DNA of 57,117 nucleotides from Caldilineaceae bacterium. Its GTDB lineage: Bacteria > Chloroflexota > Anaerolineae > Caldilineales > Caldilineaceae. Location of the stretch: NCBI GenBank assembly GCA_026989655.1, contig JALSIX010000098.1:1-57117 (forward strand), written 5' to 3'. Positions 29,658 through 35,187 of the stretch are shown here, piece after piece (position 1 is the first letter of the stretch; the number at the start of each line of letters is the position of its first letter). The translations under genes and the position numbers were made by a program. Below the pieces are notes generated by a model. It saw nothing but the letters and a program-made list of their open reading frames with translations. It did no database searches and was not told the DNA's origin.

Positions 29658-32600
29658 TTAGAGGTGGCTGGGCGAGGGGCCTCGGCCGGGGAGCGGGGAG
29701 GGGGCCTGTGGCTCGGCCCGGCGACAGCAGCTCCAGAGCCCCACCCAGCCCAGGCCCCACAGGGTCCAGCCCAGGCCGCTCAGGGCCAGGCCCAGACGCC
29801 AGCTCCTGGGGCGGTACGTGAACACCACCCGATGTTCTCCTGGGGGCACCTGCACGCCCCGGAAGAGGAGGTTGGTGGGCAGGATGGGCGCGGGGATGCC
29901 GTCCACCCGAGCCTCCCAGCCGGGGTAGTAGGCGTCTGCCAGGACCAGGAACCCCGGCCTGTCGGTCTCTACCCGGAGCACCACCTGTTCGGCCTGATAG
30001 GCCTGGACCGTTACCCGGGACGATCTCCTCTCTTCGGTGCAGGGAAGGGGCTCGGCCAGGTTGCCCTCCACCACCGCGTAGCGCCGGCGAACCCGAGGAT
30101 CGGCCAGCCGATCCAAGGCCTCTTCCGGGGAGCTCACGGCCAGGACGCAGGAGGTAAACCATGCCCGACCCCGGCCCTCCTCCACCGCGTAGATCTTCAC
30201 GTCGCCGCTGTGGACCCGTCGGAAACGGCCCCGATCGCTGGGCAGCAGGGGCTGGAAGGTCCCGGTCCGGGCATCCACCAGGGTCATCCCCCGGACCACC
30301 ACGGAGAGCTCCGGGAGGCTGGGGAGGTAGGTGAGCTCCAGGGCTGAAGGGGCCTGGGGAGGGGCCAGCGGGAGAAGCACCTGGTACTCCTGTCGGCCTC
30401 CCTCCACATCCCGATAGGCCACGGTGGCGCCCCCGGCCGCGGCCAGAGGGCTGTCCAGGGCACCGTCTGCCAGGTGGGCCCCTGGACGTCCCCCCGCGGT
30501 GAGGGTCCATGCCGGGCAGGGGCCCGGACACGGGGGGGGCACCGCGACCCGGAGCACGGGCCGATTCCCCTGCTCGAGGCGGACGAGGGCCTCCGGGGGG
30601 CCATCCACATAGGCGATGAGGCCCACATGGGTGGCCTGGAAGGGCCGGTCCACGGCCACTCGGGCGGTGACGGTGGTGTCCTGGGAGAGGTGGACCCCGA
30701 TCTGCCGATCGTAGTAGATGCCCTGGAACCAGAGGTCCTGGACCTTGTCGGTGATGACGTAGCCCACCCCGGCCAGGGCCAGGAGATCGGCCGGAGGCAT
30801 CCGGTCCACCTGTTCCCGCAGGCGGCCGTCCGGCACCAGCTCCTCTGGCGGGACGAAGAGGCCGAGGAAACGGATGTAGCGTTGGAGGGGCAGCACGCCG
30901 CCGTCGAAGCCGTCCAGCGCGGGGATCCGCCAGAGGAGCGAGAGGTTCGGCGCCAGGATCTCCTGGGCCTTGAGCGCGACGATCAGCTCCCGGAAAGCGG
31001 CCTCGTCCAAGGGCGGAGGGCTGGGTTTCCGGAACAGCCGTTCCCAGTCGGCCATGTCCCCTGGATCGAAGAGGAGGGTGCTCATGCTCAGGAACCGGGG
31101 CATGGCTCCGGGGTGGAGCTCCCGGGCAGGGTCTGTGAGCAGGTAGGCCGGTGCGGTGCGAACGTCGAACACCGCCTGGGGGGCGGTGGGACGGGTGTGG
31201 GGCAGGGCTCGGGCGGCCAGGAGCAGGTCCACGGCCAACAGGGCCAGGAGGCCACCCGGGAGGAGCCGGGCCCAAGGGGAGCTCCGGGCTCTGGGCAGGG
31301 ACCTTTCCCAGCCGTCCACGGCCAGGCCGGCCAGGATGGCCATGCCCAGGGTGTAGAGCATCATCCACCGGGCCGGTGCCCGGAAGAGGTCGAAGCCGGG
31401 CACGAACTGGTAGAGCAGATAGTAGAAGGGATTCCAGCGCCCCAGGGCCAGGAAGAGCCCCAGCCCTGCCAGGAGCACCCCGCTCCACCACACTGGGGAA
31501 CGGTTTCTGGGATCCCGGCCTCGCCCCAGGCTCCAGAGGGCCAGGATCAGCCCAAGGGCGCCCACATAGGCCACGTACTCGGTGTAGCCTGGGGTGTCGA
31601 ACACCGCGCTCAGATCTCGCCAGCCGTAGGAGGGCAGCAGGGTCCAGAGGAGCCGATCGGGGCGGAGGCTGAAGCTGCTCGCGTCCCGGTAGCTCAGGCC
31701 CCCGCTGCGCAGGCCCAGACGGCTCAGCTCCAGGGTGGGCACGATCTGGGCCGCGGCCAGCCATCCTCCCAGAAGGGTGCCCAGGACGTAGACCAGGGAG
31801 GGGAAAAGCAGGGGGCCACCGGTCCTCCGGAGGCCTGTGGAGAGCCCTTGGGCAAGGCCCCGGAGGGCAAGGGGGTACCTGGGCCGGAAGGGCAGAGCCG
31901 GTGCTCCCCGGGCCACCCGATGTCCGACGGTCCAGAGGAGCCAGCATCCCACCCCAAAGAGGTTGATGTACACGGTCTGGGCATGGCCGGCCAGGAGCTG
32001 CAGGGCCACCAGTCCCCCGAAGAGGAGGAGGGGGCTGGCCATCCGGCGAGCGGGCCCGGGATTCTCCTTGGCAGGGCGGGCATCCGGGGCCTCTTCTCCG
32101 GTCCAGGCCTGCCCCGGCGCCGTGCCACGTCCCGGCCCCTCTCGGCGGAGGGTCTCCAGGGCGTGGGCCAGGGTCCAGAGCATCCACGGCAGCCAGGCCG
32201 CGGCATTCATCTGGTTGATGTGCCCCAGGAGGCCGCCGAAGAACCCGCTGCCGGCCAGGACCAGGCCCGTGGCCGTGCCGGCCAGCCAGCCCAGCCCCCA
32301 ACGGCGCATGAGCATGTAGCCCCCCATCCCCAGAAGCCAGGTGTGGAGGGCTCCGCTCCAGAAGATCTGTTTCGTCGGGCTCAGCCACATCAGGGGCCAG
32401 TGGAGGGGATAGAGGACCGCGGCCTGGGGGTTGGCCAGGAAGGGCACCCCCGCGAAGATGTAGGGGTTCCACAGGGGGATGCGCCCCGCTCGGAGGCTCT
32501 CGGAGGCGTAGGCCCGATAGGGGTAGAAGTAGTGGAGGATGTCGCCGCTGGCCAGGACCCGGTTGGTGAAGAGGAGGGGATAGAAAAGGAGGAGGACGAA

Positions 32601-32729
32601 CCCGGCCAGCAGCCCGGCCACGGCCAGGAGGGGCCCCAGACGCGGAAGAACCCGACGGCCAGAGGGGGCAGACCGGCCCCGGCCATTCGATGTGCGGTGT
32701 TCCGGAGCGGGGGGCTGGGCCGGCTCCAT
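29658..32729 (-). CDS. YfhO-type polytopic membrane protein
   Basis: A 1023-aa integral membrane protein. After a short polar N-terminus come a first membrane helix (LLAVAGLLAGFVLLLFYPLLF), the luminal loop with SGDILHYFYPYR...IPLWNPYIFAG, and about ten further helices, typical of GT-C-like/YfhO proteins. A large extracytoplasmic beta-rich domain and a last C-terminal helix follow. Members are thought to transfer sugars from lipid-linked donors to cell-envelope polymers. The Asp in SGDIL is the likely catalytic acid by analogy with GT-C enzymes. ATG 32729 is chosen. It lies 14 bp after the final stop of the radical SAM gene, so the three genes from 35.2 kb down form one operon. Confidence 0.85.
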   Translation of the reverse strand: MEPAQPPAPEHRTSNGRGRSAPSGRRVLPRLGPLLAVAGLLAGFVLLLFYPLLFTNRVLASGDILHYFYPYRAYASESLRAGRIPLWNPYIFAGVPFLANPQAAVLYPLHWPLMWLSPTKQIFWSGALHTWLLGMGGYMLMRRWGLGWLAGTATGLVLAGSGFFGGLLGHINQMNAAAWLPWMLWTLAHALETLRREGPGRGTAPGQAWTGEEAPDARPAKENPGPARRMASPLLLFGGLVALQLLAGHAQTVYINLFGVGCWLLWTVGHRVARGAPALPFRPRYPLALRGLAQGLSTGLRRTGGPLLFPSLVYVLGTLLGGWLAAAQIVPTLELSRLGLRSGGLSYRDASSFSLRPDRLLWTLLPSYGWRDLSAVFDTPGYTEYVAYVGALGLILALWSLGRGRDPRNRSPVWWSGVLLAGLGLFLALGRWNPFYYLLYQFVPGFDLFRAPARWMMLYTLGMAILAGLAVDGWERSLPRARSSPWARLLPGGLLALLAVDLLLAARALPHTRPTAPQAVFDVRTAPAYLLTDPARELHPGAMPRFLSMSTLLFDPGDMADWERLFRKPSPPPLDEAAFRELIVALKAQEILAPNLSLLWRIPALDGFDGGVLPLQRYIRFLGLFVPPEELVPDGRLREQVDRMPPADLLALAGVGYVITDKVQDLWFQGIYYDRQIGVHLSQDTTVTARVAVDRPFQATHVGLIAYVDGPPEALVRLEQGNRPVLRVAVPPPCPGPCPAWTLTAGGRPGAHLADGALDSPLAAAGGATVAYRDVEGGRQEYQVLLPLAPPQAPSALELTYLPSLPELSVVVRGMTLVDARTGTFQPLLPSDRGRFRRVHSGDVKIYAVEEGRGRAWFTSCVLAVSSPEEALDRLADPRVRRRYAVVEGNLAEPLPCTEERRSSRVTVQAYQAEQVVLRVETDRPGFLVLADAYYPGWEARVDGIPAPILPTNLLFRGVQVPPGEHRVVFTYRPRSWRLGLALSGLGWTLWGLGWVGLWSCCRRAEPQAPSPLPGRGPSPSHL

Positions 32730-32743
32730 GGCGCTGGGGGTGT

Positions 32744-34180
32744 TCACTTCCCTCGGCGACCCAACGGGTCGGCGGTGGGCTCCGCTCAACAGAACCAGTC
32801 CTCGGTCAGCCGGGGGGGCTCGGGAGAGGCCTGCAGGCTCAATGGGGGTGGGGGAGGGCGATCCGCGGTGCGGTAGGCCACGGCCTCGATCTGGGCGAAG
32901 GCGGCCTCCGGGTTCGCCTGGCCCACCGCGGTCTCCGCGATCCGGGCCACCTGTTGCTGGAGGGTGTCCATGCGGGGGTCGGGATGCACCCACCGGTGGG
33001 TGAAGTGGACGGGGTCCAGCGGGCCGAACCACCGCCGGTTCTCCGGGTCCTCCAGGAGCGCGCTCCCGGGCGGCACCAGCAGGCGGATGCTGAGCTGGAC
33101 AGGGGGGACGTTGGGGACCAGGCCATGGGCCCGGATCCAGGCCAGCATCTCCAGGTAGTCGTCCAGATGGGTCCAGGGAGTGAAGGGCAGCCAGGTGGGC
33201 TGGACCGCGAGATCCGCGGCGGCCAGGACCTCCAGGGCCCGTTCCAGATCGGCCCGGGTGTGGCCCTTGTGGAGCCGGGCCAGCACGGCATCGCTGGTGG
33301 ACTCGAACGCGGAGACCACGAAGAGCGCGCCCAGTTCCCGAAGCTCCTGGAGCAGGTGGGGGTGGGCCAGGATGTGCTCTACCTTGGTGGTGAAGTCGAA
33401 GGTGATCTGGGGGAACTCCCGGTGCAGGGCCTGGGCGACCCGCCGGGCGTGGCCGGGGCCGTTCAGGAAGTCCGGATCGCCGAAGGTGATGTGTTGGGCG
33501 CCGGCCGCCACCTGTTGGCGGATGTCCGCGAGGACCGTCTCCACGGGCACGGCGAAGAAGCGCCCCCGGTAGATGGGGACCACCGGACAGTGGCGGCAGG
33601 TGTGCAGGCACCCTCGGGTGCTCTCCGTGTACCCGGCCAGCCGGTGGGTGCCGTCCACCACCAAGCGGGCGTAGCGTTCCAGCGGGGGAAGCGGGCGTCG
33701 GGCCGGAACCGGATAGCGGGGGCGCACCCGGACCGGCGCAGCGTCCTGGGTCCGGGTGGTGACGCCAGGGACGGTGGCCGGGTCCTGGCCCTGGGCCAGG
33801 GCATGGGCCAGGGCCACCAGGGTGGGCTCCACCTCCCCGGCCAGCACCGAGTCGGCCAGGGCCGTTTCCTCCTTCCCCCGACCCAGGAGGAAACCCGCGT
33901 TCAGGTGGGCGTACAGGCCATAGAGACAGATGTGGGCCTCGGGGTTGGCGTCCCGTACCCGCCGCGCGGCCTCCACGCCCAGGCGGAGGGCGGTGTGCAT
34001 GGGCACCGAGATGGCCACCAGCCGGGCCTGGGCCACCTGGGCCTCGGGCCAGGGCGACACCGACAGGTCCACGGCGGTGACGGGGAAACCGGCCTCCTGG
34101 AGGGCGGCCAAGGGCCAGGCCAGGCTCAGGGGCTGGTGGCCCAGCTCGTAACAGGAGCAGAGCAGGACCGGGAAGTTCAT
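32744..34180 (-). CDS. B12-binding-like radical SAM protein, CUAEP-tail selenoprotein (Sec at TGA 32788-32786)
   Basis: Residues 1-130 resemble a B12-binding Rossmann domain (LLCSCYELGHQPL, ISVPMHTALRL, HICLYGLYAH). Residues 185-400 are a radical SAM barrel with cluster Cys191, Cys195 and Cys198. The frame reaches TGA at 32788 after PRLTEDWFC, but continues Ala-Glu-Pro and ten more codons to a second TGA (32746-32744). Cys-Sec-Ala-Glu-Pro is the tail after which the CUAEP/CCAEP-tail radical SAM family is named, to my knowledge; relatives without Sec have Cys there. A stem-loop 20 nt after the TGA fits a bacterial SECIS. The predicted product is 478 aa with Sec465. ATG 34180 overlaps the dehydratase stop as ATGA. 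The reaction is unknown. If TGA is read as stop, the product is 464 aa, ending at 32786. Confidence 0.85.
32757..32788 (-). promoter_or_regulatory. Putative bacterial SECIS element
   Basis: On the minus strand, TGA (32788-32786) is followed after 20 nt by the apical loop GTT, which closes a perfect 6-bp stem CGACCC/GGGTCG (32771-32757). A lower CCC/GGG helix can form across an internal loop. A G at the first loop position and a 16-37 nt distance from UGA are, to my knowledge, the accepted bacterial SECIS criteria, and both are met. Confidence 0.65.
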
Positions 34181-35187
34181 GGCACAGGCGGACGATGGAG
34201 CACCATGTGGAGCTGGTGGGGCGAGATGTTGCCCCCGCTCAGGATGAGGGCCACAGTCTTGCCGGCCAGGCGCTCCCGGAGGCGGAGGGCCGCCACCAGC
34301 GGGGCCGCGCCGGCGGGTTCGGCCAGGGTCTTGGCCTTTTCCAGGTAGAGGCGGACCCCGTCCAGGAGCTCCTCGTCCTCCACCAGGACGAAGTCGTCCA
34401 GATGGTCCCACAGGAGGCGTTGGGGCAGCATGAAGGGCGCTCCGGTGGCCAGCCCCTCCGCCAGGGTACGGTTGGGCGCGGTTCGGGGCGCCCGTTCCTT
34501 CCAGGTCAGGTAGGCGGCTGGGGAGGCGCTGGCCTGGACACCGATCACCTGGACCTGGGGTTTCAGCGTCTTGGCCACCACACAGGCCCCCGCGGCACCG
34601 CTGCCGCCCCCCACGGGCACGATGATGGTGTCCACCTCGGGGGCTTCCTCCAGGATCTCCAGGGTATGGGTGGCGACCCCGGCGATGAGGAGGGGTTCAT
34701 CGCCGGAGGAGATGAAGCGCAGCCCCTCCTCCTGGGCCATCTGCTCTCCGGCCGTCTTGGCCGCCTCGAAGTCCGAGCCCACCAGACGGACCTCTGCGCC
34801 GTGGCCGCGCATGGCCTCCACCTTGACCGGGTTCGCGTCCTCCGGCGCGACGATCACCGCGCGTACGCCGTAGATCCGGGCCGCGTAGGCAATGGACTGG
34901 CCGTGGTTGCCGGTGGACGCGGTGATCACCCCCTGGGCCCGCCCTGCCGAGGACAGGTGGGCCATGTAGTTCAGGCCGCCGCGGACCTTGAAGGCACCGA
35001 TGGGCTGGTGGTTCTCGTGTTTCACCAGGACCCGGGCCCCCACCAGCCGGTCCAGGGCAGGGTAGTGGTGGAGGGGGGTGGGGCGGAGATGGCGGGCGAT
35101 CACCCGCCGGGCCCGGAGCACGTCCGCAAAGGTGGGGGCCTGGGGCTGGGTCTCCGTCGAGGTCGCGGGGTGGGTTGGGGTGGCCAT
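34177..35187 (-). CDS. Threonine/serine dehydratase-family PLP enzyme
   Basis: A 336-aa fold-type II PLP enzyme that deaminates L-threonine or L-serine to the 2-oxo acid plus ammonia. PLP-binding Lys67 lies in PIGAFKVRGG, followed by the SxGNHGQ motif (TASTGNHGQS), the phosphate-binding GGGSGAAG and the C-terminal SGGN. No ACT domain is present, so feedback control by isoleucine is unlikely and a catabolic-type or related amino-acid dehydratase is favoured. ATG 35187 has AAGGAG 7 nt upstream. It is the first gene of a three-gene operon; its stop overlaps the radical SAM start (ATGA). The link with that selenoprotein could be functional. Confidence 0.88.
   Translation of the reverse strand: MATPTHPATSTETQPQAPTFADVLRARRVIARHLRPTPLHHYPALDRLVGARVLVKHENHQPIGAFKVRGGLNYMAHLSSAGRAQGVITASTGNHGQSIAYAARIYGVRAVIVAPEDANPVKVEAMRGHGAEVRLVGSDFEAAKTAGEQMAQEEGLRFISSGDEPLLIAGVATHTLEILEEAPEVDTIIVPVGGGSGAAGACVVAKTLKPQVQVIGVQASASPAAYLTWKERAPRTAPNRTLAEGLATGAPFMLPQRLLWDHLDDFVLVEDEELLDGVRLYLEKAKTLAEPAGAAPLVAALRLRERLAGKTVALILSGGNISPHQLHMVLHRPPVP

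Follow-up and report, generated by a model that had tools for sequence, protein, structure and literature searches.

A CUAEP-tail radical SAM gene of a Caldilineaceae bacterium with an in-frame TGA that very probably encodes selenocysteine

In the genome of a Caldilineaceae bacterium, a radical SAM gene on the minus strand reaches a TGA codon directly after a cysteine codon, and the frame remains open beyond it. Does this TGA end the protein, or is it read as selenocysteine (Sec)? The question was addressed from the window, the whole stretch of 57,117 nucleotides that was analysed, together with homologous loci and the genomes that carry them.

Reading frame and family membership

From the ATG at 34180-34178, the minus-strand frame reads ...PPRLTEDWFC-TGA-AEPTADPLGRRGK-TGA. 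Directly after Cys464 comes codon 465, the first TGA (32788-32786), and the 13 sense codons between the two TGAs comprise AEP and ten more. The first-pass annotation had given the same coordinates, Cys464, codon count and second TGA at 32746-32744, all of which proved correct on re-reading. The features of the locus are as follows.

32744..34180, minus strand: gene for a predicted radical SAM selenoprotein, CUAEP-tail and B12-binding-like; 478 amino acids including Sec465; 705 bits to NF040546; CX3CX2C motif at C191, C195 and C198
32786..32788, minus strand: in-frame TGA, predicted Sec465, based on TGA/TGC/TGT in homologues and the Sec machinery in the genome
32757..32771, minus strand: bSECIS hairpin CGACCC-GUU-GGGUCG with the loop G at 32765, based on folding, conservation, covariation and a recoding test
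32744..32746, minus strand: predicted true stop TGA, in a GTGA overlap with the next gene if that gene starts at the GTG, which is a possible start
34177..35187, minus strand: upstream gene for a PLP-dependent threonine/serine dehydratase-like enzyme, overlapping the radical SAM gene at ATGA
29658..32747, minus strand: gene for a YfhO-family membrane protein, downstream of the radical SAM gene

Both overlaps were read directly from the sequence, with the gene starts themselves being putative. The YfhO-family gene is probably a mere operon neighbour. The PLP enzyme was considered as a pathway partner and rejected, as it is not a conserved neighbour among the homologues.

When the first TGA is read as a sense codon, the product is recognised by the NCBIfam model NF040546, named 'CUAEP/CCAEP-tail radical SAM (seleno)protein'; the score is 705 bits, the cut-off 500, and the match spans profile positions 1-467 of 468. 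The tail WFC-TGA-AEP satisfies the C-(U/C)-A-E-P pattern of this family. Additionally, an alignment of 52 homologues shows no variation in the tail residues E, W, C, C, E and P or in the CX3CX2C motif. The Radical_SAM domain of Pfam (PF04055) also scores over its cut-off, but the B12-binding domain PF02310 reaches 23.6-23.8 bits, below its cut-off of 32.1. The window gene is thus a new copy of an already curated and named family, with which it shares the full-length match, the tail and the Sec/Cys codon. The sole difference concerns its SECIS, which uses the register with a loop of three nucleotides and has Pro in place of the Gln of most relatives. The first-pass annotation had given Cys-(Sec/Cys)-Ala-Glu-Pro as the mark of a named family and considered its occurrence across a TGA to be very unlikely by chance; the curated model and its alignment through the TGA bear out both statements.

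While the family has a curated model, it is not among the 119 selenoprotein families of a 2026 inventory (PMC13188914), and the term 'CUAEP' was not found in the literature searched. Other radical SAM selenoproteins, the TIGR04167 type and TrsS (NF045646), are known (PMC13188914), but these belong to different families and have Sec at different positions. In RefSeq, the Thermomicrobium roseum protein carries the CUAEP name, yet its CDS (L126:5935-7371) stops at the TGA. This is the truncation that had been expected of standard annotation, and the window adds one more confirmed gene of the kind that ordinary annotation cuts short.

Comparative evidence for selenocysteine at codon 465

Homologous tails were collected from 80 loci and from genome searches, which contributed 20; with the window there were 100 tails, 97 of them distinct. 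Among the distinct tails the codon aligned with Sec465 is TGA in 59 and TGT or TGC in 38, and five of these 38 have a TGA one codon earlier. By type there are 56 CU tails (Cys-TGA), 33 CC (Cys-Cys), five UC (TGA-Cys) and three UU (TGA-TGA). Sec and Cys have replaced one another repeatedly. A tree of 79 proteins, from which the tail residues and one poorly aligned protein (L036, also left out of the structural work) had been excluded, implies by a quick method at least 12 Sec/Cys changes, at least six of them forced by starred branches. In this tree the window protein groups with two Caldilineaceae proteins (L022 and L023) at about 63% identity.

The hairpin at 32771-32757 had been noted in the first pass, with its 20-nt distance from the UGA and a G first in the loop, and was compared with the published bSECIS rules. 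These call for a spacing of 16-37 nt to the loop, a loop of 3-9 nt, a stem of 4-16 bp, a G in the first two loop positions and a minimum free energy (MFE) of -7.5 kcal/mol or lower. The window hairpin agrees with all of them: the spacing is 20, the loop GUU and the stem 6 bp, the energy is about -16 kcal/mol for 45-49 nt folded, and the hairpin belongs to the predicted MFE fold. The stem survives in only about 1% of synonymous recodings of the window copy. Compared with dinucleotide shuffles, the fold energy of this copy alone is unremarkable (z -0.85), and the argument therefore relies on comparisons among homologues. Rfam at gathering thresholds gave no match in the window, from which no conclusion on the SECIS is drawn.

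Across the family, the hairpin is tied to the TGA. Every Sec form (64/64) has G at position 24 and G or U at position 25, compared with a loop G24 in 23/33 and G/U25 in 19/33 Cys forms. When a hairpin was counted only if both loop bases were right and, in either of two registers, no more than one of the five core pairs was missing, it was found in 64/64 Sec forms vs. 9/33 Cys forms (Fisher p 1.1e-15, not corrected for kinship). Folding beyond the constraint of the protein averaged z -1.24 in CU forms and +0.09 in Cys forms. Covariation points the same way: among the 38 sequences that share the register of the window copy, both sides change in six of seven pairs. Double-changed cells number 37, whereas shuffles give 11.8 and none of 500 reaches the observed count, and the signal is lost when the pairing partner is slid. 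Choosing the register by best fit biases the counts towards pairing, but not towards double changes. Some Cys forms, such as L049, L050 and L115, still possess the hairpin, as expected after recent loss of Sec.

The source genome (4.09 Mb, 99% complete) encodes the complete Sec machinery. The matches to selB (325 bits), selA (582 bits) and selD (332 bits) are all over the family cut-offs, and tRNA-Sec (selC) is present with the anticodon TCA (UCA in the RNA). ARAGORN found no tRNA genes in the window, and tRNA-Sec sits on another contig. The selD gene, too, codes for a selenoprotein: an in-frame TGA lies within the ACAGUASK motif of its active site (L018:1501-2496). In a sample of genomes from the same phylum, assigned to Chloroflexota because hits in it are identical to loci of Thermosporothrix and other members of that phylum, selA is over the cut-off in all 42 tested genomes with a TGA-bearing CUAEP gene and in 37/38 genomes whose CUAEP gene has no TGA. 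In a cross-phylum set, selA occurs in 25/28 Sec-form vs. 15/21 Cys-form genomes, a difference that is not significant (p 0.15); in this count L055 was scored as present, though its gene is split over two contigs. The three Sec-form MAGs with no selA match over the cut-off (L028, L038 and L043) are probably incomplete.

Taken together, these observations bear on two other readings of the TGA. It could be a genuine stop, with the protein ending at Cys464 and the AEP codons being chance or a remnant, and the RefSeq CDS of the T. roseum homologue agrees with this in stopping at its TGA. However, the C, C, E and P that follow W do not vary among the 52 homologues, the Cys forms run on through the same tail, and a covarying hairpin is kept in all Sec forms but has decayed in most Cys forms, so that a stop at this codon is very improbable. 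Nor is it credible that the TGA is decoded by general readthrough or under a reassigned code. While the open frame extends to either side of the TGA, as such decoding would have it, TGA works as a stop both for the radical SAM gene and for the gene upstream, the aligned residue in relatives without the TGA is always Cys and never Trp or Gly, and tRNA-Sec and SelB are present in the genome. Almost certainly, then, the gene encodes an NF040546 enzyme in which Cys464-Sec465 would arise from recoding of the UGA at 32788-32786 by SelB and tRNA-Sec, directed by the hairpin at 32771-32757, with translation ending at the TGA at 32746-32744. The family membership, the alternation of TGA, TGT and TGC, the covarying SECIS tied to TGA and the complete machinery are direct results of the computation; from these sequences we infer insertion of Sec at residue 465, a reading as secure as comparative genomics allows.

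The first-pass annotation fared well in this comparison. It had pointed to selA, selB, selC and selD in the host genome and to TGT or TGC at the Sec codon of homologues, and both are found. It had also named homologues that truly end at WFC as evidence against Sec, and the homologues instead carry on through AEP. Its proposal of Sec insertion is therefore supported by the comparative evidence.

Tandem and shifted TGA codons

Beyond the window, the main value of the family lies in its tandem TGA variants and in its link to a ligase. Tails of the form WY-TGA-TGA-AEP (WYUUAEP) occur in L064 (9290-9410), L065 (7540-7600) and L090, and all three proteins exceed the NF040546 cut-off. In five others (L051, L071, L078, L097 and L099) the tail is WY-TGA-Cys-AEP (WYUCAEP), with the predicted Sec at the first position of the pair. 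The UU state occurs at two separate places on the tree, and selA is present in 8/8 genomes with UU or UC tails. As the UU and UC patterns were not found in 400 sampled Chloroflexota genomes, these tails are rare.

The UU tails possess one bSECIS-like hairpin, which lies 20 nt past the second TGA and 23 nt past the first. This single hairpin would serve both TGA codons. The rare UU tails would put to the test whether neighbouring UGA codons can both be decoded under one SECIS. The adjacent UU motif is not listed in the inventory of 119 families (PMC13188914), and a literature search on consecutive Sec returned nothing relevant. The UC and UU tails go beyond what the NF040546 database entry holds.

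ArsL kinship, the ATP-grasp ligase and possible chemistry

After NF040546, the second-best NCBIfam match is the ArsL model NF040542, with 295.5 bits and the next match at about 50; the ArsL cut-off of 450 bits is not reached by the window protein. ArsL acts in arsinothricin biosynthesis, where its proposed role is to move the aminocarboxypropyl group from SAM onto arsenite (PMC8552651). Both proteins possess a B12-like/radical SAM architecture, the CX3CX2C motif and an adjacent Cys pair in the tail. In an alignment with two ArsL-type proteins (34-38% identity), the CC of the ArsL tail pairs with Cys-Sec. In contrast, the RCCLKC tail of ArsL lacks AEP and Sec, and the window protein has CUAEP in its place, so that only the Cys pair aligns. 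This kinship is not part of the NF040546 entry. An arsenic role, as suggested by ArsL, was considered and dropped; none of the conserved neighbours of CUAEP loci was recognised as an ars gene.

The AlphaFold2 model is confident except for the last residues (pLDDT 94, pTM 0.92), with the tail modelled less surely (mean pLDDT 64 for residues 461-470). Its nearest folds are AprD4 (Z 28.1), OxsB (26.7), MgmA (26.3) and TsrM (25.4). This fold spans different reactions, and sharing it does not establish which one is catalysed.

Clustering of neighbouring genes identified an ATP-grasp protein with the L-amino-acid-ligase C-terminal domain PF18603 just downstream of the CUAEP gene in many loci. The first clusters contained numerous antisense shadow ORFs, and the analysis was limited to those clusters that had family matches. 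Among 400 Chloroflexota genomes, the ligase is present in 97 of the 99 with the radical SAM gene vs. 34 of the 301 without it (odds ratio 381, p 1e-60, not corrected for kinship), and in 50 of the 97 it lies within 6 kb of the radical SAM gene. No ATP-grasp ligase gene is found among the neighbours of the radical SAM gene in the window; the ligase of the source genome, with 55% identity, is on another contig (G000:C138:10785-12023, L122). The near-obligate co-occurrence also extends past the database entry, and it provides a concrete handle on the function of the enzyme, which is unassigned in the sources searched. The 34 of these genomes with the ligase and no CUAEP gene include G008, G017 and G167.

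Based on these relationships, the enzyme would form an amino-acid product from SAM, as is proposed for its relative ArsL. At the active site, the vicinal Cys-Sec tail would bind or reduce a soft ligand, which might be a metal, metalloid or chalcogen, and the ATP-grasp ligase would join the product to another amino acid. The three steps are offered jointly as a tentative proposal, by analogy with ArsL, and are rather unlikely to hold all together. A somewhat better prospect, if still short of probable, is a cobalamin-dependent methylase or dehydratase in which Cys-Sec would act in redox reactivation or protection. The best folds (AprD4, OxsB, MgmA and TsrM) and the B12-binding domain, weakly detected below the Pfam cut-off, are consistent with such an enzyme. 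However, the ArsL model is by far the second-best match, ArsL too has a tail Cys pair, and the fold is common to different reactions. If the ArsL-like chemistry is extended to the whole family, the CUAEP protein and its ligase might represent a widespread undescribed pathway in which Cys-Sec or Sec-Sec holds a soft element for formation of a SAM-derived carbon-heteroatom bond, the product is ligated, and some lineages insert tandem Sec under one SECIS; this picture is speculative and unlikely as a whole.

Other genes recur near relatives of the window gene. A Priestia locus of the RCCLKC-tail (ArsL) type has an ATP-grasp gene nearby (L127:477-1700), which is only distantly related to the CUAEP partner (21% identity). 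In several Ktedonobacteria (L026, L027, L029, L031 and L033), an Fe(2+)-trafficking protein (PF04362) is encoded 15 nt upstream, and the same family also occurs near many acidobacterial CUAEP copies. In a few other loci, an NfuA-like protein adjoins the CUAEP gene.
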